56,176 nucleotides of DNA from a bacterium. GTDB taxonomy: Bacteria; Pseudomonadota; Gammaproteobacteria; Nevskiales; OUC007. The stretch spans positions 1 to 56,176 of the forward strand of contig JAAFAL010000004.1 in NCBI GenBank assembly GCA_018222345.1. Direction: 5' to 3'. Each line of letters starts with the position of its first letter. The stretch's first letter is position 1. Below the pieces are notes generated by a model that was given only the letters and a program-made list of their open reading frames with translations, did no database searches and was not told the origin of the DNA. Both the position numbers and the translations under genes were made by a program. Below, piece by piece: positions 17,181-28,358 of this stretch.

Positions 17181-18233
17181 ATGAAGGTGTTGATCGACAT
17201 TTGTCATCCAGCTCATTTCCATTTTTTCAAACATCCAATCAGCGAGCTGAAAGCTCGCGGTCATGAAGTCATTCTGACGAGTCGCGGTAAGGACTGCGCC
17301 ACAGTCTTGATCGAGGATGCCGGGCTTGAGCACTACTGCCTGGGTGATGAACACTCAGGTGGAGTGTTTGGCATGGCGCGAGAATTGGTCGTGCGTGATG
17401 TTCAGCTTGCTCGGTTTGTTCGTCAGCAGCGGCCAGAGGTGCTCGCTGCTGTTGGTGGCGTATTCGTCGCTCACGCTGGGCGCTTGACAGGCACGCCGAG
17501 TGTGGTCTTCTACGATACCGAACTGGCGCGCATGCAGAACGCCTTGACCTACCCCTTTGCAAATTGTGTGGCCGTACCAGATTGTTACTTTGCTTCGGTT
17601 CCTAAGACTCGGACAGTTCGCTATTCGGGTTTCCATGAGCTGTCGTATCTTCATCCGGATCGCTTTGTGCCAGATCGAGAGATTGCTGAGCGGAGCGGGC
17701 TAGATTCCAAGCGACAGAACTCCCTCGTCAGGGTTGTTTCCTGGACTGCAAATCACGATGTCGGTCAATCCGGTTGGAGTCAAGCCACATTGTCGGCCGT
17801 CGTTCAACACCTTGCTCAGCTCGGCCATGTCATGGTTTCCTCGGAAGTTCAACTGCCCAACGAGATTGAGCAGTATCGGTATCAGGGCAATCCGGGTGAC
17901 ATGCACCATGTGCTGGCATTCTGTAGCGCCTGTGTCGGAGAGAGTGCGACGGTCGCTTCAGAGGCGGCCATGTTGGGCGTTCCAGCGCTGTATGTGTCTG
18001 ATGCGCGGCGTGGTTATATCGATGCGCTGGACGATCGCTATGGCTTGGTGATCCGCGTGCCCGGATCGTCCAGCAGCGCACAAATTCTAGATGCAATCGA
18101 TCGCATGCTTACGTTGCCTTTGGATTCGCGGAAGCGTCGCCACCAGGCGATGTTGGTAGAGATGTGTAATGTATCCAAGTTCGCAGCTGACTTGATTGTT
18201 TCGTCAGCCAAGCTGCGGTGGAGGGCGCCGTGA
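17181..18233 (+). CDS. DUF354-family glycosyltransferase-like protein
   Basis: 350 residues of a GT-B-like fold related to UDP-GlcNAc 2-epimerase/MurG-type proteins and assigned to the DUF354 group. Visible features: N-terminal MKVLIDICHPAHFHFFKHPI, the AAVGGVFVAHAGRLTGTPSVV segment near residue 90-110, and the C-terminal GESATVASEAAMLGVPALYV that resembles the nucleotide-sugar-binding half. Members usually occur in polysaccharide loci with unknown sugar specificity. No separate good promoter is seen after the alpha terminator (a TATAAA lies at 17157-17162 without a fitting -35). Its stop overlaps the next gene as GTGA. Confidence 0.75.
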   Translation: MKVLIDICHPAHFHFFKHPISELKARGHEVILTSRGKDCATVLIEDAGLEHYCLGDEHSGGVFGMARELVVRDVQLARFVRQQRPEVLAAVGGVFVAHAGRLTGTPSVVFYDTELARMQNALTYPFANCVAVPDCYFASVPKTRTVRYSGFHELSYLHPDRFVPDREIAERSGLDSKRQNSLVRVVSWTANHDVGQSGWSQATLSAVVQHLAQLGHVMVSSEVQLPNEIEQYRYQGNPGDMHHVLAFCSACVGESATVASEAAMLGVPALYVSDARRGYIDALDDRYGLVIRVPGSSSSAQILDAIDRMLTLPLDSRKRRHQAMLVEMCNVSKFAADLIVSSAKLRWRAP

Positions 18234-19069
18234 AATTCCTTGCGTTATGCGCTGTTCACAACCGGCGCGACAAAACCATCCGTGCTGTGGAAGCAGTTCA
18301 TGCGGGTATGCCATCCAATTGCAGCCTGCAGATGTGCGTTGTGGACGATGGTTCCACAGATGGCACGGCATCAGCATTGGGTGAACGATTCCAGGAGGTT
18401 CAAGTCCTGCGGGGTGACGGGTCGTTGTACTGGGGCGGTGCAATGCGCAAGGGATGGGATGATTGGTGCAAGCTGCAAGGTGACTTCGATTACCTGTTGG
18501 TTTTCAACGACGACATTGAACTGGACCTAGAGGCCTTCAGAGAGTTTGTGTTGTCGCAGACCGTCAGATCGAGACAGTACAGAGAATCAGCAGTAGCATT
18601 TGTCGGGGCTTTTCGGCAGCCGAATTCAGTGAGGGTGTCTTATGGGGGATTGCGCCTTTCTAATCGATGGAACCCCCTGAGTTTTGAAAAGGTCCAGCCA
18701 ACTGGCGCGCTCGAGCAATGCGATAGCCTGAATATGAACCTGGCGTTTATCAGTCGGCCGGCTTTGGTGTTGACTGACTTTCTTGATCCGATATTCATAC
18801 ATCGCAAGGGCGACTTGGATTTTGGGCTGCGCCTGCAAGCCGAAGGCGGTGCTGTGTACCAAAGTGCAACATTTATTGGTGCCTGCCCACGAAACGTACA
18901 AGCTTCGACGGGGTCACGCCGAGGGCTACTTGCGAGGCTGCGGCACGCGCGCAGTCCAAAGGTCGATCCGCCGGGCACATTGCGGCATTATCTTGAGCGG
19001 CATGGAGGTTGGCATTGGCCGGTGTTGTGGTTAGCCAAGTACATCAAATCCGCAGTGCTACCTGCATAG
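18230..19069 (+). CDS. GT2 family glycosyltransferase
   Basis: 279 residues, GT-A fold. The nucleotide-binding VVDDGSTDGT lies at 37-46, and a DxD-like FNDDIELD at 92-99. GSLYWGGAMRKG at 64-75 resembles the GNGNLGWGGG motif of rhamnosyltransferase-like GT2 enzymes. The GTG start at 18230 is chosen because GGAGG (18220-18224) precedes it by 5 nt and it overlaps the upstream stop by 4 nt; an upstream in-frame GTG at 18218 lacks such a site. No membrane segments, so probably a cytoplasmic glycan-assembly enzyme. Acceptor and donor are not predictable. Confidence 0.85.
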   Translation: MKFLALCAVHNRRDKTIRAVEAVHAGMPSNCSLQMCVVDDGSTDGTASALGERFQEVQVLRGDGSLYWGGAMRKGWDDWCKLQGDFDYLLVFNDDIELDLEAFREFVLSQTVRSRQYRESAVAFVGAFRQPNSVRVSYGGLRLSNRWNPLSFEKVQPTGALEQCDSLNMNLAFISRPALVLTDFLDPIFIHRKGDLDFGLRLQAEGGAVYQSATFIGACPRNVQASTGSRRGLLARLRHARSPKVDPPGTLRHYLERHGGWHWPVLWLAKYIKSAVLPA

Positions 19070-19126
19070 TTGGAATTTCCACTGCCTTGCGCTTCTATGA
19101 TGGCTTATAGCCACCCACCAACTGTA

Positions 19127-19933
19127 ATGAACATAGTTGATCAAATGGCGACCATTAGATTCATAACGACGCGCCCTAAGAATTGGAAATTGCCATTGGA
19201 GCGCCGACTTTGGATTTCGGCGATCGATAAATACTATTCGGCCAGGAGTCGTGAGTTTCACGTTCTAACCGAGGGTGCAACAGACTTGGAGCCGCCGTTC
19301 GTGGCCACTCCCAATGGCCATCGGCCCAAGATTCTGGACATGCTGCGCTACGCAGGCGATGTCACGCGAAAAGGCGACATTGCCGTTCTGCAGAATGCCG
19401 ATTGCCTGCTCACGTCGACAGTAAAACTGATGGATGTGGCGGAGTTTGGAGATCACCCAGTAATCATGCCGTTTCATCGGTGGAATATCGGCGTTCTGCC
19501 GCGCAGCTTATTTCATGCATTGGCGTATCTGGGGCGGGAATACACTTATGGCTATGACGCGTTTGCAATGAACAAGGCGGCGGTCGAATTGATGTGGGAG
19601 GCATTTCAGAACTACCAGCCGTATCTGATCGGAGAGCCGTGGTGGGATTACGCGTTTCTATATTGCGCGATCGAGCGCAACGTGATGCTGCTTGCACCAC
19701 CAAAGTACCGCTTGTTGCATGTATGGCACCCGACTCAGTTTGAGCGCAGCGTCTGGGATGGCAACGGGCAATCTTTGAAGCGCAGGATCTTGCGGGATCG
19801 CAGAAACCAAGGCGACGACGTGCCTGTTCACAGTTTCCGGAGTGCGGGAGAGGACACGCTAGAGTTCTCAAACGCATTGAACGACTATATTCGAGCGCAG
19901 TTGACGTCTCGAAACGTATCGGACAATCAGTGA
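19127..19933 (+). CDS. Unrecognised protein of a glycan locus (putative glycosyltransferase-like)
   Basis: I do not recognise the family. The frame is open from 19070. I place the start at the ATG at 19127 (MNIVDQMATIRFITT), with ATG 19145 and 19097 as alternatives; none has a clear ribosome-binding site. From 19127 it has 268 residues, rich in aromatic residues and with no membrane segment or signal peptide. AVLQNADCLLT could be a degenerate nucleotide-sugar site and GEPWWDYAFLYCA an acceptor region, but this is guesswork. The position between a GT2 and a GT4 gene, all on one strand, suggests a role in the same glycan pathway. Confidence 0.6.
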   Translation: MNIVDQMATIRFITTRPKNWKLPLERRLWISAIDKYYSARSREFHVLTEGATDLEPPFVATPNGHRPKILDMLRYAGDVTRKGDIAVLQNADCLLTSTVKLMDVAEFGDHPVIMPFHRWNIGVLPRSLFHALAYLGREYTYGYDAFAMNKAAVELMWEAFQNYQPYLIGEPWWDYAFLYCAIERNVMLLAPPKYRLLHVWHPTQFERSVWDGNGQSLKRRILRDRRNQGDDVPVHSFRSAGEDTLEFSNALNDYIRAQLTSRNVSDNQ

Positions 19934-19952
19934 GCTACGCGTAGCATTGCCA

Positions 19953-21173
19953 ATGTCTATCCGAGTCTGTCACGTCATAGAAGGTGAGCGATTGCGTGGT
20001 GCAACGCAGGGCGCGCTTAACTTGCATGGCGGCCTTAGGACTCGCTGCATTGTTGACTCGTCTGTTCTGTCAACCAGTTCACTCGGCCTGGATCCGGGTG
20101 CGGGAAGAGTCGTCAGGCGCAACTGGATTCCCACTAGGGCCGATGCCTTGGTCCGCGACTTTACACGGTCTGGCATGCGCGGGACGTTCAGCATAGGCGC
20201 ATTTGGGCGCAGTCTCGCTGAAATGAATCTGGAACAGCAGTTTGATGTGGTGCACGTACATTGGGCCTGCCGACAGATCAATCCTTTTCGCGTGTTTGCC
20301 AAGTGCAATGTGCCTACTGTCTGGACGATGCGTGATTACTGGCCACTAACCGGTGGGTGCCACACGCCGCTAGGCTGTGAGCAATTCAAGACGACTTGTC
20401 ACAAATGCCCACAACTCAACGCTTGGGCTTCGACCATGGTTCGGTTGACGCATAGGTCAAAGCATAATGCGGCGCGGCCGGATGTCGTGATTGCTCCATC
20501 GATGCAAATGAAACGCGTAGTTGAAGAAAGCAGCTTTCAACCAGCTGGCAAACTTGTGACGATTCCGAACGCAGTTGACGAGTCGCGATTCGTTGCAGTC
20601 GACCGTCTAGAAGCTCGAATTGCACTTGGGCTTCCGCATAAAGGAAAGCTAGTGCTGCTAGGAGCGATTGACCTTGGTGAGCGTCATAAAGGACTCGCAG
20701 AGTTTAAGGCTGCGCTTTCACATTGTGTGGGTGAATTTTCGATCATTACCTTCGGGTATTGCAGCCATGATGTACTGGGTGATATCGGTCGCCCTGTACA
20801 CCGAATGGGATACCTGAACGATGCGCGTCAACTGTCGATGGCATACAGCGCGGCCGATGTCTTTGCTTTTCCCTCACTGGAAGAATCATTTGGCAAGACC
20901 ATGGTCGAATCACTGATGTGTGGAACGCCCGTAGTGGCTTTCCCGGTAGGGGCCGCAGAGGAAGCGTTGAAGCATGGGTTGTCTGGGCAAGTCGTAGCCG
21001 CCGCTGATACCGCTGCGTTCGGTGCAGCGCTGGACGCAATTTTGTGGGCACCGGCCGACAGGGGGGCGATTCGAAACAGTGCGATTGCTCTATTCGGCAC
21101 TTCAGTAGTAGCTGCTGACCATGAGCGGCTTTACACGAAGCTTGTTCGCGAAGCGAGAGAGAATTCTCAGTGA
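19953..21173 (+). CDS. GT4 family glycosyltransferase
   Basis: 406 residues, GT-B fold. The N-terminal domain starts MSIRVCHVIEGERLRGATQG with the glycine-rich acceptor loop. VHVHWACRQINPF is in the first domain. The C-terminal domain carries the retaining EX7E motif: E311 to E319 in EESFGKTMVES, followed by CGTPVVAFPVGAAEEAL. ATG 19953 is preferred to TTG 19947. The stop overlaps the next gene (GTGA). Retaining, cytoplasmic or membrane-associated; sugar unknown. Confidence 0.88.
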   Translation: MSIRVCHVIEGERLRGATQGALNLHGGLRTRCIVDSSVLSTSSLGLDPGAGRVVRRNWIPTRADALVRDFTRSGMRGTFSIGAFGRSLAEMNLEQQFDVVHVHWACRQINPFRVFAKCNVPTVWTMRDYWPLTGGCHTPLGCEQFKTTCHKCPQLNAWASTMVRLTHRSKHNAARPDVVIAPSMQMKRVVEESSFQPAGKLVTIPNAVDESRFVAVDRLEARIALGLPHKGKLVLLGAIDLGERHKGLAEFKAALSHCVGEFSIITFGYCSHDVLGDIGRPVHRMGYLNDARQLSMAYSAADVFAFPSLEESFGKTMVESLMCGTPVVAFPVGAAEEALKHGLSGQVVAAADTAAFGAALDAILWAPADRGAIRNSAIALFGTSVVAADHERLYTKLVREARENSQ

Positions 21174-21922
21174 CGCATGCAAGGCGAAAGGAGTTGTTGG
21201 TCCAGGTCGTTCGGAGGTTTACTACCTTGGCGCAGCGCCGCCGTCTCCGGCAGTCCATCGTTGCATTGCGCAATGCGACCAACCCGGCCCAAAAGTTGGC
21301 TTATAAGTGGTTGCTGAACCACGTCAACCTCCGCCGCAACAGGCGGCGGAGCAATCGCCGACTAGAGATCGGGCCTGGGCACACGAGCCTTGTAGGTTTT
21401 GAGACTGCCAATATCACCGTAGTGGGGCGGCTTGATTATCTTGTAGATGCGGCAAAGCCATTGCCGTTTCGCGATGCAGAATTCGACCTGATTTATGCCA
21501 GTCATATTCTCGAGCATGTTCCCTGGTATCGGACAGTTGATGTGCTGCGCGAATGGGCCCGCGTAACTCGTCCGGGCGGCAGGGTGGAGATTTGGGTTCC
21601 TGATGGGCTCAAAATTGCCAAAGCGTTTGTAGACGCTGAATCAGGCGCAGCTAACGATTTCCGACTCGATGGTTGGTACAAATTCAACCCAAACCACGAT
21701 CCATGTGTCTGGGCGAACGGACGAATGTTTTCATACGGCGACGGTGCGGGTACGAAAGGCGATCCAAATTGGCACCTGGCGTTGTTTTCACTTCGGCATC
21801 TAAGCCAATGCCTTCGAGAAGCAGGTTTCGGAGAGATAGTGGAGCTTCCCCGAGATGCAGTTCGAGGCGATGACCATGGCTGGATCAATCTCGGAGTTAC
21901 CGGGGTGCGACTTGAACTATAG
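21170..21922 (+). CDS. SAM-dependent methyltransferase, class I
   Basis: 250 residues. The SAM-binding motif LEIGPGH is at 65-71, DAAKPLPFRDAEFDLIYAS at about 93-111, and SHILEHV at 111-117, the typical Methyltransf_11 pattern. The N-terminal 60 residues are strongly basic (many Arg), possibly for membrane or substrate contact. The GTG start overlaps the previous stop. In this setting it may methylate or cap a growing glycan, but the substrate cannot be read from the sequence. Confidence 0.8.
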   Translation: MTHARRKELLVQVVRRFTTLAQRRRLRQSIVALRNATNPAQKLAYKWLLNHVNLRRNRRRSNRRLEIGPGHTSLVGFETANITVVGRLDYLVDAAKPLPFRDAEFDLIYASHILEHVPWYRTVDVLREWARVTRPGGRVEIWVPDGLKIAKAFVDAESGAANDFRLDGWYKFNPNHDPCVWANGRMFSYGDGAGTKGDPNWHLALFSLRHLSQCLREAGFGEIVELPRDAVRGDDHGWINLGVTGVRLEL

Positions 21923-22868
21923 AAGCGTCTCCGATCTTGCCGCTACGATTCGTGCTGGGTCGAGCGCCGTGCCTAGTAACGTCAATTTGATTGTAGGGAT
22001 TCCTCGCAGTGGAACACTTGCTGCGAGCCTTCTGGCGCTACACATGAACCATAGTACATGCGACTTGGAAAGCTATCTGCGCGGCGAAGAACCTGTTCAT
22101 GGAAACACGCGTAGTCCGTTGCGTTCTGATCTGCACAATCCAGAGTTGACCGGGCGCACTCTTGTATTAGATGACAGTGTCGCGTCTGGCAATACATTGC
22201 GTTTGGCAAGGACCCGGATCGAGGAGGCTTTTCCAGGTCGCGAATGTATTTATGGCGGTGTGTTCGTTTGCGAATCTGCTCGCGATGCTACGGATATTGC
22301 ATTCGAGTTGCTTGAAATGCCGAGGGTATTCGAGTGGAACTTGTTCCATCGGCCAGATATTGATCAATGTTGCGTTGATATCGACGGAGTGCTCTGCCGA
22401 GATCCGACCAATGCCGAGAACGATGATGGGGTGAACTATCAGATGTTCATGCGCACAGTAGCGCCGCTGTTCAAGCCTAGTTATCCCATTGGGCACCTGG
22501 TTACCAGTCGGCTGGAGCGATACCGCCAGTTGACTGAGGAGTGGCTTCACAACAACGGCATCAATTTTCACCACCTACACATGCTCGACCTGCCGACAGC
22601 GGAGATTCGACGGCAGCAGCGCGCGCATGCGCCATTCAAGGCGAAGGTCTACAGCCAGGTTCGCCAAGCGCAATTGTTTGTTGAAAGTGATCCGATTCAG
22701 GCTCAACAGATCGCGGATATGTCGGGTAAGGCAGTGCTGTGCTATTCGGATCAGTTGATGTATCGCCCTCACACAGTCATTCCTCGCGCTTTGCGCGCCG
22801 TGGAAACAAGGATGGGCCGGGTTAAGCGAGCGGCGTTGCGTCGGTTGCGGCGCGGGCGCGATGGTTGA
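21912..22868 (+). CDS. Phosphoribosyltransferase-HAD phosphatase fusion
   Basis: 318 residues from a TTG start at 21912 preceded by GGGG; ATG codons at 21870 and 21876 are alternatives with a longer overlap onto the methyltransferase. N-terminal type I PRTase domain: VNLIVGIPRSGTLAASLL near 24-41 and the PRPP-binding LVLDDSVASGNT at 84-95. C-terminal HAD-like domain: CVDIDGVLC at 154-162 with Asp156 and Asp158 as nucleophile and acid/base, then a TSR motif and later lysine/aspartate segments. The basic tail is Arg-rich. No nucleotide pathway partner is adjacent; the genes around it make glycan. Inference: it adds phosphoribose from PRPP and then dephosphorylates it, or prepares a pentose donor. 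Confidence 0.75.
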   Translation: MNYRSVSDLAATIRAGSSAVPSNVNLIVGIPRSGTLAASLLALHMNHSTCDLESYLRGEEPVHGNTRSPLRSDLHNPELTGRTLVLDDSVASGNTLRLARTRIEEAFPGRECIYGGVFVCESARDATDIAFELLEMPRVFEWNLFHRPDIDQCCVDIDGVLCRDPTNAENDDGVNYQMFMRTVAPLFKPSYPIGHLVTSRLERYRQLTEEWLHNNGINFHHLHMLDLPTAEIRRQQRAHAPFKAKVYSQVRQAQLFVESDPIQAQQIADMSGKAVLCYSDQLMYRPHTVIPRALRAVETRMGRVKRAALRRLRRGRDG

Positions 22869-24294
22869 CCAGCCAATATCGATCCGACGCGGGTTGACAT
22901 GGATTCTGATTGGTCAAGGGGGGCGGGTTGCAACGCAACTCATCAGCTTGGCAACTTTGGTTCGTCTGTTGCCGCCAACCGACTATGGCCTGATGGCTAT
23001 GGCCGCGACAGTGGTGGCGCTGGCTGCCATGTTCCGAGATTTCGGTACGGCAGCTGCACTGATTCAGGCGCCAACCGTTAGCACCAGGCTCAAGCAATCG
23101 GTTTTTTGCTTCAACCTGACTATAGGCATACTCGTTGCCGCGGCTACATTGGTTTTGGCAGCGCCCGTTTCCATGCTGTTCGCCGAGGCGAGGCTCTTTT
23201 GGGTTCTTATTGCCTTGTCGCCAGTATTTGTGATTGGCGCATTGGGGGCGGTTTCTCGCGCGATGTTAGAGCGCGAAAGCAAATTTCGCAGCCTGGCGGG
23301 TGCGGATGTTGCTGCCGGGCTGGTGGGGTTAGCAGTTGCCGTGGTCATTGCCGTGTCAGGTGGTGGCGTCTACGCCTTGGTCGGGCAACAACTGGCTTCC
23401 GCACTGGTGGCAACGGTCGCTGTTCTTTGGCTAGTGAGTTGGAAGCCGGCTGCTGAGGTTCGCTTTGATGAGATTCCGAAGATATTCAGTTTCTCTTCGA
23501 ATGTTTTTCTGTTCAATATCATCAACTATTTCCACAGGAGCGCAGGTGATTTTCTGATTGGCAGATACCTTGGCGCAAAGACCTTGGGTTTCTACAGCGT
23601 TGCGAATCGAATTCTCATGCTACCGCTCCAGAACGTGACGTTCGCCATCAATCGAGCGTCCTTCCCTGTGTACAGTCGACATAGCGAAAATCAACGTGCG
23701 CTCCAGGTTCACTATTCGGAAACTCTGGCGTCAATCTGCTTTGTCATCGCACCTGCGCTCGCGTTGGTCTGGGCATTACGGGAGCCAATTATTGAGCTGG
23801 TGCTGGGTCCCGAGTGGGTTCAAATTGCAGTGCTTTTGGCATGGATTGCACCAACCGGCTTTTTGCAGTCAGTTACTAGCACTAGCGGTTCGATTCTCAA
23901 TGCACTTGGACGGTCGGACTTGCTCAGAAACCTGGGGGTTGTCGGAGTGCCATTTCTCATTCTAGCCATGGTCGCAGGCTTGAAATACGGCGTCGAAGGG
24001 GTGGTGTCGTTTTATTTCGTAGCTAATGTGTTTTGGTCGGTGCCTGTGATGGCGGTGGTATTCAGGCAATTGGGTGGTGGCGCATTGGAATTTCTAAAAT
24101 CCACCTACCGATTCAGTGCGCTGGCAGTGATTCTGGCGCTTGTTACGCGCTGGGCGTGGGCCGAAGGCATTTGGGGCAGTCTTCCATCACTAGTAGGAAT
24201 CACCGCTTCCACCATTATCTTTTCTGGTCTGTACTTGGCGATCGCATGGGCCTGTGCACCGATGCCGATCAAATCGGCATTAGCGCGTCAATAG
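22861..24294 (+). CDS. Wzx/TuaB-type lipopolysaccharide flippase
   Basis: 477 residues with about 12-14 hydrophobic helices, MOP superfamily (Polysacc_synt_3-like). The N-terminus IRRGLTWILIGQGGRVATQL and segments such as PPTDYGLMAMAATVVALAAMF and YLGAKTLGFYSVANRILMLP are typical of WzxC/TuaB-like exporters. It overlaps the PRTase-HAD gene by 8 nt. Known role of the family: flips lipid-linked oligosaccharides across the inner membrane. It closes the plus-strand glycan operon; no Wzy polymerase is visible beside it. Confidence 0.88.
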   Translation: MVDQPISIRRGLTWILIGQGGRVATQLISLATLVRLLPPTDYGLMAMAATVVALAAMFRDFGTAAALIQAPTVSTRLKQSVFCFNLTIGILVAAATLVLAAPVSMLFAEARLFWVLIALSPVFVIGALGAVSRAMLERESKFRSLAGADVAAGLVGLAVAVVIAVSGGGVYALVGQQLASALVATVAVLWLVSWKPAAEVRFDEIPKIFSFSSNVFLFNIINYFHRSAGDFLIGRYLGAKTLGFYSVANRILMLPLQNVTFAINRASFPVYSRHSENQRALQVHYSETLASICFVIAPALALVWALREPIIELVLGPEWVQIAVLLAWIAPTGFLQSVTSTSGSILNALGRSDLLRNLGVVGVPFLILAMVAGLKYGVEGVVSFYFVANVFWSVPVMAVVFRQLGGGALEFLKSTYRFSALAVILALVTRWAWAEGIWGSLPSLVGITASTIIFSGLYLAIAWACAPMPIKSALARQ

Positions 24295-24333
24295 AGCTCA
24301 CGTGACAAACATCGGTCAGACTCGACTCTCGTG

Positions 24334-25218
24334 TCAATCGTTATCGTGCATCTTCCTCGAGAGCGTGACATATAGCAGCGTCGTGATCTGCTCGGCTACT
24401 AGTCCGATCAAGAAAACCAGAACCGACGTTGAAACCAATAACGCACCGAAGTTTGTGAACACGCCGCTCGACAGATAAGTGAATAGGTAATACCCGACGC
24501 CGCCCAGCAGGAAAGTTATGGAAATCGGGAAGAACACCTTCAGCGGCGAATACAACGATGCGATGCGAAAAATGATCAGCAGAAACCGCGCGCCATCCTT
24601 GAACAGCTTAATGTGGCTCGATCCGGTTCTTCGTGACACGTCAATTGGAGTGAATGACACACCATACCCACCCCGAAAAAACGCGATGGTGCTTGTTGTG
24701 GGGTAGGAAAACCCATTGGGTAATAAGTCTACGAAATCGAGAATAACGGATCGGCGCATGGCTCGGAATCCTGACGTCAGGTCTTTCACTGTGTGGCCTG
24801 TAACCCAAGTCGCGAGGCCGTTGTAGATGCTGTTCGCGATATATCGCCAGATGTTGGCTTGCCCGGAGCGACTTCTTGCCCCTACGGCTAGATCGGCACC
24901 CTGTTCAAGCTCTTCCAGCAAAGTACGGATGTCCTTGGGGTCGTGCTGGCCATCAGCATCCATGCAAACCACAAATGGCCTACTAGCGGCCTTGAGCCCA
25001 CTCTTGATCGCGGCACCGTTCCCGCGAGATGTTCGATGGTGTACGACTATCGAGCTCAAGGATTGCACCATCTCGCCAGTTCCGTCTGTTGATCCATCGT
25101 CTACAACAATGATCTCGGCTTCCGGGTGAATCTGCCGAATTGTCTCTAGGACTCCCGGCAGGCTTGTGACCTCATTCTTGGCAGGAATGACAACCGAAAA
25201 GTCTAAGTCCTTGATCAC
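24334..25218 (-). CDS. DPM1-like polyprenyl-phosphate glycosyltransferase (GT2)
   Basis: 294 residues. GT-A domain with VVIPAKNE at 9-16, VVDDGSTDGT at 38-47, and MDADGQHDP at 86-94 (metal-binding DAD 87-89), the pattern of dolichol-phosphate-mannose synthase-like enzymes. RSGQANIWRYIANSIYN and DLTSGFRAMRR follow. The C-terminal part has a GtrB/DPM-like pair of membrane helices (VFFPISITFLLGGVGYYLF and LLVSTSVLVFLIGLVAEQI). It should make undecaprenyl-phosphate-hexose on the cytoplasmic side. The GTG start overlaps the stop of the upstream GT-C gene, so the two are translationally coupled and probably act in sequence. Confidence 0.85.
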   Translation of the reverse strand: MIKDLDFSVVIPAKNEVTSLPGVLETIRQIHPEAEIIVVDDGSTDGTGEMVQSLSSIVVHHRTSRGNGAAIKSGLKAASRPFVVCMDADGQHDPKDIRTLLEELEQGADLAVGARSRSGQANIWRYIANSIYNGLATWVTGHTVKDLTSGFRAMRRSVILDFVDLLPNGFSYPTTSTIAFFRGGYGVSFTPIDVSRRTGSSHIKLFKDGARFLLIIFRIASLYSPLKVFFPISITFLLGGVGYYLFTYLSSGVFTNFGALLVSTSVLVFLIGLVAEQITTLLYVTLSRKMHDND

Positions 25219-27140
25219 TGTCGGCTCCCTGCTGCGAGATTTTCGCGAATGACACTTAGGTCGCGGTCGTAGATGCCTGCTTTGGGGTGCTCTTCCAAGA
25301 CCGATAGCCGCGCTAGCGCTTGATCTTCAAGCCCTGCTGCCAACAGTAGCTTGAGCAGATTGAACTGGATATCCCACCGCTCGGGTTGTGTGTCGACGGC
25401 CTGCCGCATGATCTCGATGGCACCACGTGAGTCGTCAACCCTATTGAACAGGAACTGAGCATACGCATTCTTGATACTGATAATTGCGCCAGTGGGCAGA
25501 TTATCATTGGCTAGAGCTGCGTCAGTCCATGTTTCCAGTACAGCTGGTGGCAAGGACTGCCGCGGAGGCTGAGCCGACAACAGGCTGACCAGGCTATTGA
25601 GCGTATAGATTTGATATCCGGCTGTCTGCAATCGTTTTGCCACCTGTTCGATGAGTTGGTCGGGCACAGACTGATTCAGTCGCCAGTTGATGCTGGCGAT
25701 TCGCATCAGGCTACCGGCATCGCGGGGGTCAAGTTCGGCGGCTTCACGAAAGTGGCCCGTCGCCGACCCGCAGAGTTTTCGAGCGGTCTCAATCAAACCA
25801 CCATTAATGTATCGATGGCATAGCGCAACGAACTCGGAGCCTACATAGATGTGGGCGCGGGGAGAACTGGGGTGGGCGTGGAGTGACCGGTTTAGCATGT
25901 CCGATCGATCGGCCCACACGCTAGCGTTATGGTGTGTCAGCATTCCTAGAGTGACGGCTGCGAGGGCAGTGAGAACGATTGCCCAACGCCGCATGCCGGA
26001 ACTAGCCTGCGCCAGCCATTGGTGTACCTGCAGGCTCAACCCGATAAACAGCCCGGTTGAAGGAAGATAGTTTCGGTGTTCGTACTTCAATTCCAAAGGG
26101 ATAAAGGTTGATTCGAGCGCATGAGCGACCAAGTAGAACGCTAGGCCAAAACTCAACCATCGAATGCCCAGGCTTGGGCGCGCCAACCCAACTATGGTTG
26201 CCGCTACGCCTAAAGCCAACACAAGTGCAGGCAGGGTGCTAGACGTCGGGAGTATGTCATCGTGGAACAGGGTCATCGAACTGATGTCCGGGAGCAACAA
26301 CTGGCGCAGATATTCACCGAGCACAAGGGGTTGAGTCAGGAGCCTCTGGCTCATAGTGAAATCGCGCTGTAAGTAGCCTGCTAAAAAATCTGGAAACTTC
26401 CAGAGCAAAGCTAGGACAAGCAGAACGCTTGGAACAACTGCGCCACACCAGAACAATATTCGTGACGGAGCGCCACCGCTAGCTTGGTGGCGGATTACAC
26501 CCGCTTCAAGAACCAGTAGGATCAACGGTGCTAGTGCAGCTGTTTCCTTGCAGGCGATGCCGAGCAATGTAAGCAAGCCTATTGCCGGCAACGTGGCGAT
26601 TGTTCGGAGCCAAGAGCTGCTTGCGGCTGTGCGTTGGCGCAGATACAGCAACGTAGCAGCCAGTACGAACAGTGTGGAAAGCGCAGTCATGCGCTGTACA
26701 ACGTAAAACACGGTTGACACATGCAGCGGGTGTAGCGCCCACACTGCAGTGACGAGTAGGGGCGGCCATGGGCTGCTTACTCCGGCAATGCTGGATATTT
26801 TTTGGGCTAGCAAAAACACCAAGGCAGCCACAACAATGTGGATGGCCAGATTTGTGGCCAGCATAGGCGCAGGTTGCAAGCCCGAGATCGCGTGATTGAC
26901 CGCGAAGCTGGCATTGGCGAGCGGGCGACCTAAGCCGCTCGATGGGCTATCAGCTACTGCCCTGTGCAAAGCGTCCAAGCTCAAAGAATCAATATGAACG
27001 CCGGGTTGATTGACAATATGCTGGTAGTCATCAAGCCAGAAATTGCCGTTAATGCCTGGCCAATACGCTAAGGCTATCAACACAAGTAGCAACGCGCCCA
27101 TGCTCCCGCATCTGATTGCTACGCTGCGATTATTTGACAT
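25215..27140 (-). CDS. TMTC-like membrane GT-C protein with C-terminal TPRs (putative pilin glycosyltransferase)
   Basis: 641 residues from ATG 27140 (a TTG lies one codon upstream). N-terminal membrane helix, then NGNFWLDDYQHI with Asp37-Asp38 in the first periplasmic loop, the catalytic position of GT-C enzymes. About ten further hydrophobic segments follow. The segment ALHPLHVSTVFYVVQRMTAL matches the HPxH...R pattern of TMTC/POMT-like proteins. After the last helix (near residue 410) comes a soluble helical region of about 220 residues with TPR-like periodicity (EAAELDPRDAGSLMRIASI; RQAVDTQPERWDIQFNLLKL). It lies directly downstream of a pilin gene and coupled to the DPM1-like gene. Inference: it transfers a sugar from polyprenyl-phosphate to pilin. 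It could instead act on another glycan. Confidence 0.7.
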   Translation of the reverse strand: MSNNRSVAIRCGSMGALLLVLIALAYWPGINGNFWLDDYQHIVNQPGVHIDSLSLDALHRAVADSPSSGLGRPLANASFAVNHAISGLQPAPMLATNLAIHIVVAALVFLLAQKISSIAGVSSPWPPLLVTAVWALHPLHVSTVFYVVQRMTALSTLFVLAATLLYLRQRTAASSSWLRTIATLPAIGLLTLLGIACKETAALAPLILLVLEAGVIRHQASGGAPSRILFWCGAVVPSVLLVLALLWKFPDFLAGYLQRDFTMSQRLLTQPLVLGEYLRQLLLPDISSMTLFHDDILPTSSTLPALVLALGVAATIVGLARPSLGIRWLSFGLAFYLVAHALESTFIPLELKYEHRNYLPSTGLFIGLSLQVHQWLAQASSGMRRWAIVLTALAAVTLGMLTHHNASVWADRSDMLNRSLHAHPSSPRAHIYVGSEFVALCHRYINGGLIETARKLCGSATGHFREAAELDPRDAGSLMRIASINWRLNQSVPDQLIEQVAKRLQTAGYQIYTLNSLVSLLSAQPPRQSLPPAVLETWTDAALANDNLPTGAIISIKNAYAQFLFNRVDDSRGAIEIMRQAVDTQPERWDIQFNLLKLLLAAGLEDQALARLSVLEEHPKAGIYDRDLSVIRENLAAGSRQ

Positions 27141-27164
27141 CAATTCGTATCGGTGTTGGCCCGC

Positions 27165-27190
27165 AAAAAAAAGCCCGCCGTTAGGCGGGC
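27165..27190 (-). terminator. Intrinsic terminator downstream of the first pilin gene
   Basis: GCCCGCC (27173-27179) and GGCGGGC (27184-27190) with a 4-nt loop, followed on the minus strand by an eight-base T run (27172-27165). It stops most pilin transcripts just before the GT-C gene, which starts 24 nt beyond; low-level read-through is a likely way that gene is expressed. Confidence 0.9.
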
Positions 27191-27233
27191 TTTCCTGTTT
27201 CAGGCAAGACTTAACAGTCTTGCATGCTTCATC

Positions 27234-27695
27234 TTACAAGCTAGAAGCGTTTGAGCATGGCTTGGGTAGATACTTGGTTTCCAAAGTAGAACCTGCCCCA
27301 TTTTGCAAACACAGCCATTCGCCACCTGCGGTGCGCTCATAAGCCAACACACCACCCGAAATGCCGGACGACACGCCAGTTGTCTTAAACGTGGCTAGCA
27401 GTTGTCCAGTGGATGTTGCAACATTGGCTACGCTAAGTGAGTCAACATATTGGCCTGATGTGCGGATGCCTAACGCAGTTAGAGCTGCTGTATCGGCAGG
27501 GAATGCCCCTTCCTGAGCAACGCTCTCTTCAATGGCTGTGCGCGCACCACCAATTAGTGTGGAGGCTTCAGATACTTGCGAGCGCGCAATGTAGTCCTGG
27601 TAAGCCGGGATGGCGATGGCGGCGAGAATGCCGATGATCGCCACAACGATCATGAGTTCGATCAGGGTGAAACCCTGTTGCTTTTGATTGGTCAT
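27234..27695 (-). CDS. pilA: Type IV major pilin, copy 1
   Basis: 153 residues. The 8-residue leader MTNQKQQG is followed by [25 protein letters not shown], with Phe1 and Glu5 of the mature pilin, a class IVa signature for PilD cleavage and N-methylation. The globular part ends with the disulphide pair WLC and PKPC and a short tail SNASSL rich in Ser. In Pseudomonas group I pilins the C-terminal Ser is glycosylated, so this tail is a candidate acceptor. A sigma-54-like promoter lies upstream and an intrinsic terminator downstream. Confidence 0.93.
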
Positions 27696-27761
27696 GAGAA
27701 ACCGTCCTTAATCTGAGAATGTGAACCGATGCGGCGGTACTCCCCGCCTGCATATAGTTGA

Positions 27762-27777
27762 TCCAAGATCGGTGCCA
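27762..27777 (-). promoter_or_regulatory. Sigma-54-like promoter of pilin copy 1
   Basis: On the minus strand TGGCAC-N5-TTGGA. The -24 half is a perfect consensus; the -12 half has TTGG instead of TTGC, losing the usual C of the GC doublet. It ends about 67 nt before the pilin ATG. Pilin genes of Pseudomonas are sigma-54/PilR dependent, which supports the call. Confidence 0.6.
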
Positions 27778-27853
27778 GCCAGGGAAATTTGAAAAACACA
27801 TAAAATACAAATGCTTGCATATTGTTTCGTGCTCTAGAACTTTGGCTCCGCGC

Positions 27854-27888
27854 CGTCAATTGTCACGCGGTGACGAATATTGTCACTT
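27854..27888. promoter_or_regulatory. Candidate enhancer (PilR-type) upstream of pilin copy 1
   Basis: Two direct copies of ATTGTCAC 20 bp apart, with an inverted repeat GTCAC-gcg-GTGAC at 27862-27874 formed by the first copy. The region lies roughly 100-140 bp upstream of the expected start of the sigma-54 transcript, where an enhancer-binding protein should act. PilR of Pseudomonas binds repeats containing TGTC. It might instead be a weak terminator of pilin copy 2. Confidence 0.4.
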
Positions 27889-27902
27889 CCGTTTCGCGAC
27901 GG

Positions 27903-28358
27903 TCAGACCTTGACGCAACCTTTGGGTAGGTATGGCGGTTCAATGGCGCTGGCTGCCGGCGTTGTGCACTGCCACTCCAGCGTGTTCCCGATAATTGTTG
28001 GTGACCAGTCAAGCGCTTTTCCGGATATCAGTGCCGACACGCCGATGGTTTTGAATGTCACACTAATTACGCCATCAGTAACTGATACAGCGTTGACAAA
28101 GTTTCCGGCGTTAGCGGCTTTGGCTGGCGGAATCACGCCAATACCGCTGTCTGCATTGTCCAGATTGCCATCCAGGGCGAACGTCTCTGTCACCTGCACC
28201 TTGAGTGATCCAGCGATGGCGATGCCCTCGCTGACCTGCGCCTTGGCGACGTATTCCTGATAGGCGGGAATTGCTATGGACGCCAGTATGCCAATGATCG
28301 CCGTCACGATCATCAACTCAATCAATGTAAAGCCAGATTGTTTCGGACGTTTAGCCAT
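27903..28358 (-). CDS. pilA: Type IV major pilin, copy 2
   Basis: 151 residues. The 9-residue leader MAKRPKQSG precedes [25 protein letters not shown] with mature Phe1 and Glu5. The globular domain differs strongly from copy 1 but also closes with a Cys pair (WQC and PKGC) and has no Ser-rich tail after the last Cys (ends VKV). It has its own sigma-54-like promoter. The two could be alternative major pilins, or one may be a specialised minor subunit. Confidence 0.92.

Follow-up and report, generated by a model that had tools for sequence, protein, structure and literature searches.

A phosphoribosyltransferase–HAD phosphatase fusion in a glycan gene island, a probable two-step ribofuranosyltransferase

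What does a protein do that joins a 5-phosphoribosyl-1-pyrophosphate (PRPP) binding motif to a HAD phosphatase motif and is encoded within a run of glycan genes? The question is raised by a gene, here called PRT-HAD, in a 56,176-nucleotide stretch of bacterial DNA (contig JAAFAL010000004.1), which is called the window below. An earlier note on this DNA had proposed ribofuranosylation in two steps, in which 5-phosphoribose is transferred from PRPP and the phosphate is then removed.

The fusion gene and its island

The PRT-HAD frame occupies positions 21855–22868 of the forward strand and opens with an ATG at 21855. Its homologues begin at MxYRS, which matches a TTG codon at 21912, so this TTG is the likely start, in agreement with the earlier note. 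The uninterrupted frame holds both LVLDDSVASGNT and VDIDGVLC, confirming that the two motifs named in that note are part of the same polypeptide of 318 residues. The placement of the gene between a methyltransferase and a flippase was confirmed as well: the methyltransferase gene (21170–21922) overlaps its start by 11 bases and the flippase gene (22861–24294) overlaps its end by 8 bases, suggesting that PRT-HAD is translationally coupled to both. The pairing is not a chance one: in homologues of 33–47% identity, whether encoded on plasmids, on chromosomes or on viral contigs, both domains are present and their order is unchanged.

The surrounding run of genes, at 17181–24294, comprises a DUF354/GT-B-like candidate, a GT2 enzyme, an unassigned protein, a GT4 enzyme, the methyltransferase, PRT-HAD and a Wzx-type flippase (Table 1). 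The unassigned protein is possibly an unrecognized glycosyltransferase, and the TPR-containing membrane protein encoded beyond the flippase is possibly a GT-C or pilin glycosyltransferase. The GC content of the island is 0.52–0.55, compared with 0.60 and 0.63 in its flanks, which fits horizontal acquisition. The island (17181–28358), which holds two genes for type IV pilins as well as those for glycans, adjoins a ribosomal-protein operon; it is possibly a pilin glycosylation locus.

Table 1. Features of the PRT-HAD gene and its island in the window
Feature	Positions	Strand	Remarks
DUF354/GT-B-like glycosyltransferase candidate	17181–18233	+	Pfam PF04007, E 6e-14
GT2 glycosyltransferase	18218–19069	+	Pfam PF00535
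287-aa protein in glycan gene run	19070–19933	+	Without Pfam or NCBIfam match
GT4 glycosyltransferase	19947–21173	+	PF13692, E 8e-17
Class I methyltransferase	21170–21922	+	PF08241; recurrent PRT-HAD partner
PRT-HAD fusion gene	21912–22868	+	318 aa; TTG start, set by homologues; TGA stop
Type I phosphoribosyltransferase (PRT) domain	21912–22346	+	Residues 1–145; VIA and Foldseek fold matches
Pyrophosphate loop PRSG	22002–22013	+	Residues 31–34; aligned with SRGG of E. coli Gpt
PRPP motif LDDSVASGNT	22167–22196	+	Residues 86–95
Family signature PRVFEWN	22320–22340	+	Residues 137–143; occupies place of Gpt purine hood
HAD phosphatase domain	22350–22757	+	Residues 147–282, ~135 residues; no large cap
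HAD motif I, VDIDGVL	22374–22394	+	D-x-D-G-V invariant
HAD motif II, LVTSRLE	22497–22517	+	T, R, E invariant
HAD motif III (Lys in PFKAKVY) and motif IV (LFVESD)	22632–22691	+	K243, E258, S259 invariant
Basic C-terminal tail	22761–22865	+	Predicted helix 290–317; net charge +10
Wzx/MOP-type flippase	22861–24294	+	PF13440, E 2e-73; MOP flippase models
Polyprenyl-phosphate-sugar-synthase-like GT2, C-terminal membrane segments	24334–25218	−	51% identical homologue near PRT-HAD in locus L051
Membrane protein with TPR repeats	25215–27143	−	TPR match; ~6 TM segments; 30% identical homologue in L051
Two type IV pilin genes	27234–28358	−	PF00114

Two predicted domains and a basic tail

An AlphaFold2 model of PRT-HAD, built from 43 homologues, had a pLDDT of 92.5 and a pTM of 0.83. 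The domain and structure prediction that the earlier note had named as a check thus gave a PRT fold in the N-terminal part and a HAD fold in the C-terminal part. The modelled PRT domain matched H. pylori XGHPRT (7kl7) with a VIA Z score of 15.4 over 134 residues (rmsd 3.7), and Sulfolobus HGXPRT with a Foldseek E value of 8e-7. By sequence, the window protein reached 22.8 bits (E 6e-5) against Pfam Pribosyltran (PF00156), below the cut-off of 26.3, and the same family was matched in 12/12 aligned family members at E ≤ 1, with a best E value of 9e-13.

The residues expected to hold the donor are kept throughout the family. In the pyrophosphate loop, P, R (R32) and G are found in 43/43 homologues and S in 42/43, and in the PRPP motif the two contiguous aspartates are invariant (43/43) and the glycine is present in 41/43. 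Together with the modelled fold, this lends good support to the PRPP donor site proposed earlier. The acceptor side is different. For comparison we used E. coli Gpt, the sequence of which was confirmed against annotated gpt genes before alignment, and in which we take D92 to be the general base, K115 the purine-binding lysine and W134 the stacking tryptophan. The positions aligned with these residues are unconserved across the 43 members, in a mapping made at 21% identity of which the purine hood is the weaker part. The hood is replaced by the family signature PRxFxWN, with R, W and N in 43/43 homologues, F in 42/43 and P in 41/43. Because the pyrophosphate-loop arginine and the DD pair are invariant and the D92, K115 and W134 positions are not, the protein appears to have kept PRPP as donor but not a purine as acceptor; in particular, the loss of these positions and the invariant R-x-F-x-W-N in place of the hood argue against a 6-oxopurine. 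A purine-salvage role, considered as a candidate, was rejected on the unconserved purine-contact residues and on the commonest neighbor families, which include none for nucleobase salvage.

The HAD part had no match in Pfam or NCBIfam, and its catalytic-motif residues D156, D158, T198, K243 and E258 are invariant across the 43 homologues. Within the full-length model it was closest to the phosphatase domain of T4 Pnkp (5uj0; VIA Z 12.5 over 120 residues, rmsd 3.2), and the domain modelled alone gave the same best fold (Z 12.3); a Foldseek search with the domain alone gave no match with E below 0.001. The earlier reading of VDIDGVLC as a HAD motif is thus borne out by the invariant motifs and the predicted fold. 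Motifs I and II are only ~40 residues apart in the model, with one short helix between them, and the domain accordingly lacks a large cap. A phosphatase step is supported by the retention of all HAD motifs and by the nearest fold, since the T4 Pnkp phosphatase acts on the sugar phosphates of a polymer.

PyrR and a ppGpp-bound PRT-fold protein were also among the VIA structural matches of the model. They would be in keeping with a PRT domain that serves as a PyrR-like sensor or regulator of PRPP or nucleotides, next to a HAD domain acting on an unrelated pathway sugar phosphate. Such a division of labor is, however, very improbable, considering that PRPP loops and HAD motifs alike are invariant and that even distant taxa and viral contigs retain the fusion. 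The same observations fit two catalytic sites acting in sequence.

The HAD domain is followed by a basic tail, the net charge of which has a median of +9 in 80 cellular members, these being the loci kept from 369 candidates. The tail is absent (0–6 residues) in all 10 members from viral contigs, a label given by the sequence collection in which they were found. Since the basic tail occurs in the cellular copies and is missing from the viral-contig copies, it likely mediates contact with the membrane surface in cells. The protein has no clear hydrophobic or transmembrane segment (the best 19-residue mean is 1.33), and the model is that of a soluble alpha/beta protein.

Distribution and genomic neighbors

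The fusion was found by tblastn on 41 plasmids, from Rhizobium, Sinorhizobium, Paracoccus and others. A single-sequence query gave no match in genome contigs or viral contigs and an alignment query was needed; this gave 369 candidate loci in species genomes and the 10 viral-contig members, while annotated phages yielded no match. Within the order of the window genome, PRT-HAD was present in 1/85 genomes, a sporadic occurrence in line with horizontal transfer.

We then counted the neighbors of PRT-HAD by Pfam family in 34 dereplicated cellular loci, taking the closest two ORFs to its left and right. GT4, GT2, Wzx and WecG lead among the resulting 133 ORFs, some of which are spurious, and clustering of the neighbors placed a glycan-gene cluster within 6 kb of PRT-HAD in 27 of the 34 loci; for the other 7/34, none of the scored clusters contained a glycan gene. 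As a control, 59 neighbors of ordinary PF00156 genes from the same phylum, one per side, showed no such glycan family among the 25 commonest families listed; both censuses show the 25 commonest families, and the comparison is a contrast rather than a formal test. The glycan context described in the earlier note is therefore well supported. Linkage to purine or pyrimidine salvage, named beforehand as evidence against the proposal, was looked for among the neighbors of the 34 loci, and no nucleobase-salvage family was found among the commonest.

Individual loci repeat the arrangement seen in the window. The methyltransferase family of the window gene is encoded directly beside PRT-HAD in loci L033, L042 and L051 and in five viral contigs, and L051 keeps together homologues of the pilin, the TPR membrane protein, the GT2 enzyme, the methyltransferase, PRT-HAD and Wzx. 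On Paracoccus plasmids, PRT-HAD lies among a polysaccharide exporter and glycosyltransferases, with a nucleotide-sugar dehydrogenase in two of them. On one viral contig (L119, 6272–8143), PRT-HAD and a C-terminal GT4 domain (E 2e-10) share a single ORF.

These observations bear on the possibility that the product is a nucleoside-like small molecule, a modifier or signal made near glycan genes: a base would react with PRPP to give a nucleotide, which the HAD domain would convert to the nucleoside. The PRT domain is closest in fold to purine PRTs, and nucleoside natural-product pathways do use PRT plus HAD pairs. Against this stand the unconserved purine-contact and general-base positions, the absence of nucleobase-salvage families from the commonest neighbors and the GT4 fusion in L119, and we regard a nucleoside product as improbable.

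Five viral contigs (L115, L116, L118, L120 and L121) carry, among phage genes, a cassette of a GT2 or other glycosyltransferase, a methyltransferase and a tail-less PRT-HAD. The members on three Rhizobium plasmids (L010, L011 and L013) have ~110 extra residues at the C-terminus; their gene is flanked by one for a caspase-domain protein and by a large glycosyltransferase gene, and a type VI secretion cluster (vgrG, tssM) is next to it. This setting, which is not that of a plain polysaccharide operon, was counted against the glycan reading, as were the 7/34 loci whose scored clusters lack a glycan gene.

Proposed reaction and relation to known enzymes

The observations that support the proposal are the two folds in a confident model, the conserved PRPP and HAD residues, the loss of the purine residues, the linkage to glycan genes and the one fusion to GT4. 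Transfer followed by dephosphorylation is in our judgment the best explanation for PRT-HAD and a fairly probable one, and it is with similar confidence that we propose that PRT-HAD transfers 5-phosphoribofuranose from PRPP to an acceptor glycan and that its HAD domain then removes the 5-phosphate. PRT-HAD would then be a cytoplasmic, probably membrane-associated enzyme, whose PRT domain would bind Mg-PRPP and attach 5-phosphoribofuranose at a hydroxyl group of the glycan as it grows on its lipid carrier. Transfer would most likely be inverting and give a beta linkage, as in those known PRPP-using ribosyltransferases that invert. The HAD domain would strip the 5-phosphate to leave a ribofuranosyl residue, which could be extended or methylated before being flipped by the adjacent Wzx. 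Transferase activity, the order of the steps, the glycan acceptor, the anomer and the membrane contact are all inferred.

Dual-domain PRPP ribofuranosyltransferases that contain a HAD domain are already well known from Klebsiella, Haemophilus b and Campylobacter (PMC11127046, PMC10299916, PMC12096443). The two-step logic of the earlier note is reasonable. Its precedent, mycobacterial decaprenyl-phosphate-arabinose synthesis (the pair of DPPR synthase and Rv3807c), is not the closest one, as these dual-domain enzymes are closer. The gPRT-PRP proteins of Klebsiella pneumoniae O4/O7 and Thermobacillus composti (the latter with a structure), as described in later papers by the same and other groups, have PRPP as donor, a transferase and HAD domain in one protein encoded in glycan loci, and two-step ribofuranosylation, the logic that we propose for PRT-HAD. 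By this description, PRT-HAD differs in having a compact canonical type I PRT domain with a contiguous DD pair, a length of 318 aa and a HAD domain without a helical cap.

In Bcs3 (CrpP-CriT) of Haemophilus influenzae b, the HAD domain precedes the transferase, the DD function is shared by D680 and E818, which lie on different loops, there are helical-bundle inserts, and the CrpP cap is alpha-helical and of ~100 residues (PMC10299916). Bcs3, an inverting enzyme with a beta-Ribf product, and Campylobacter jejuni Cj1432, which has the same domain order, resemble PRT-HAD in joining a HAD phosphatase to a PRPP-dependent ribose-5-phosphate transferase. In PRT-HAD, by contrast, the PRT domain comes first, the DD is contiguous in a compact 145-residue PRT domain, unlike the CriT type described in PMC10299916, and the HAD domain is nearly capless, with motifs I and II ~40 residues apart, unlike CrpP. 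A feature of gPRT-PRP that is present is a predicted PRPP-binding transferase and a HAD domain in one polypeptide encoded in glycan loci. PRT-HAD appears to act as these enzymes do, but because it lacks defining features of that family, as described, we have not filed it as a member; it looks like a separate solution, set apart by the features above. The gPRT and PRP PDB entries were absent from its profile matches and listed fold matches, an absence that is no proof of difference.

The domains themselves resemble other known proteins. E. coli Gpt, H. pylori XGHPRT and Sulfolobus HGXPRT share the fold and PRPP-binding loops of PRT-HAD, which differs from these xanthine-guanine PRTs in its unconserved purine hood and general-base residues, its fused HAD domain and its glycan context. 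The T4 polynucleotide kinase 3'-phosphatase is the closest HAD fold (Z 12.3–12.5), and the HAD domain of bacterial Pnkp1 gave a weak sequence match (E 2e-4), whereas PRT-HAD has no kinase and lies in a glycan rather than a nucleic-acid repair context.

Citrobacter youngae ORF15 and the mycobacterial pair likewise add a pentofuranose by PRPP transfer followed by dephosphorylation, using a UbiA-type membrane transferase and a lipid-phosphate acceptor. By analogy, undecaprenyl phosphate might be the acceptor for PRT-HAD: UndP-5-phosphoribose would be made and dephosphorylated, and a GT-C enzyme would use the UndP-ribose once it had been flipped. UndP-Ribf logic exists in the Citrobacter three-component system, with mycobacterial arabinan synthesis alike; the island encodes a flippase as well as a membrane protein that is a GT-C candidate, and the basic tail suggests membrane contact. 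However, the known UndP and DecP phosphoribosyltransferases are integral membrane proteins of the UbiA type, a fold that the soluble model of PRT-HAD does not have; the neighboring flippase fits MOP/Wzx models for oligosaccharides rather than the small four-helix UndP-Ribf transporter, and the census of 34 loci showed no constant GT-C partner. A lipid-phosphate acceptor is accordingly unlikely, if somewhat less so than the nucleoside product considered above.

Ribose transfer to the glycan itself is the reading that we prefer: PRT-HAD probably attaches ribose to a sugar chain of the bacterial surface, by known chemistry with different parts. We also lean, with less assurance, towards the view that these proteins are a second family of glycan ribofuranosyltransferases using PRPP, which would have evolved separately by recruitment of a PRT of the purine-salvage type and a HAD domain like that of Pnkp. 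The family would be widespread in glycan loci of Pseudomonadota and carried on plasmids and, tail-less, by phages, and it may be the source of ribose in many uncharacterized surface glycans. If so, PRT-HAD with PRxFxWN would be a simple sequence marker for glycan ribofuranose in hundreds of species, among them Mesorhizobium, Stutzerimonas and Paracoccus, and a small soluble enzyme for glycan engineering; more than one type of PRT would have given rise to PRPP-dependent O-ribosylation, in this case an apparent purine-salvage enzyme, and the known capsule and O-antigen enzymes would be one of several solutions.

No polysaccharide with known ribose could be tied to any PRT-HAD member. The riburonic acid of the Mesorhizobium loti R7A EPS was considered as a product and dropped, as the PRT-HAD locus could not be equated with the exo cluster credited with the EPS. 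Each of the four Mesorhizobium genomes searched has one copy of PRT-HAD, ~16–17 kb from a priming phosphoglycosyltransferase gene; its locus carries GT4 genes and, in many cases, a GMC oxidoreductase gene. In L079 (13815–15720) and other Mesorhizobium and Hyphomonas loci, the GMC oxidoreductase adjoins a small protein with a twin-arginine-like signal, near PRT-HAD, and could act in sugar oxidation, perhaps of ribose to riburonic acid.
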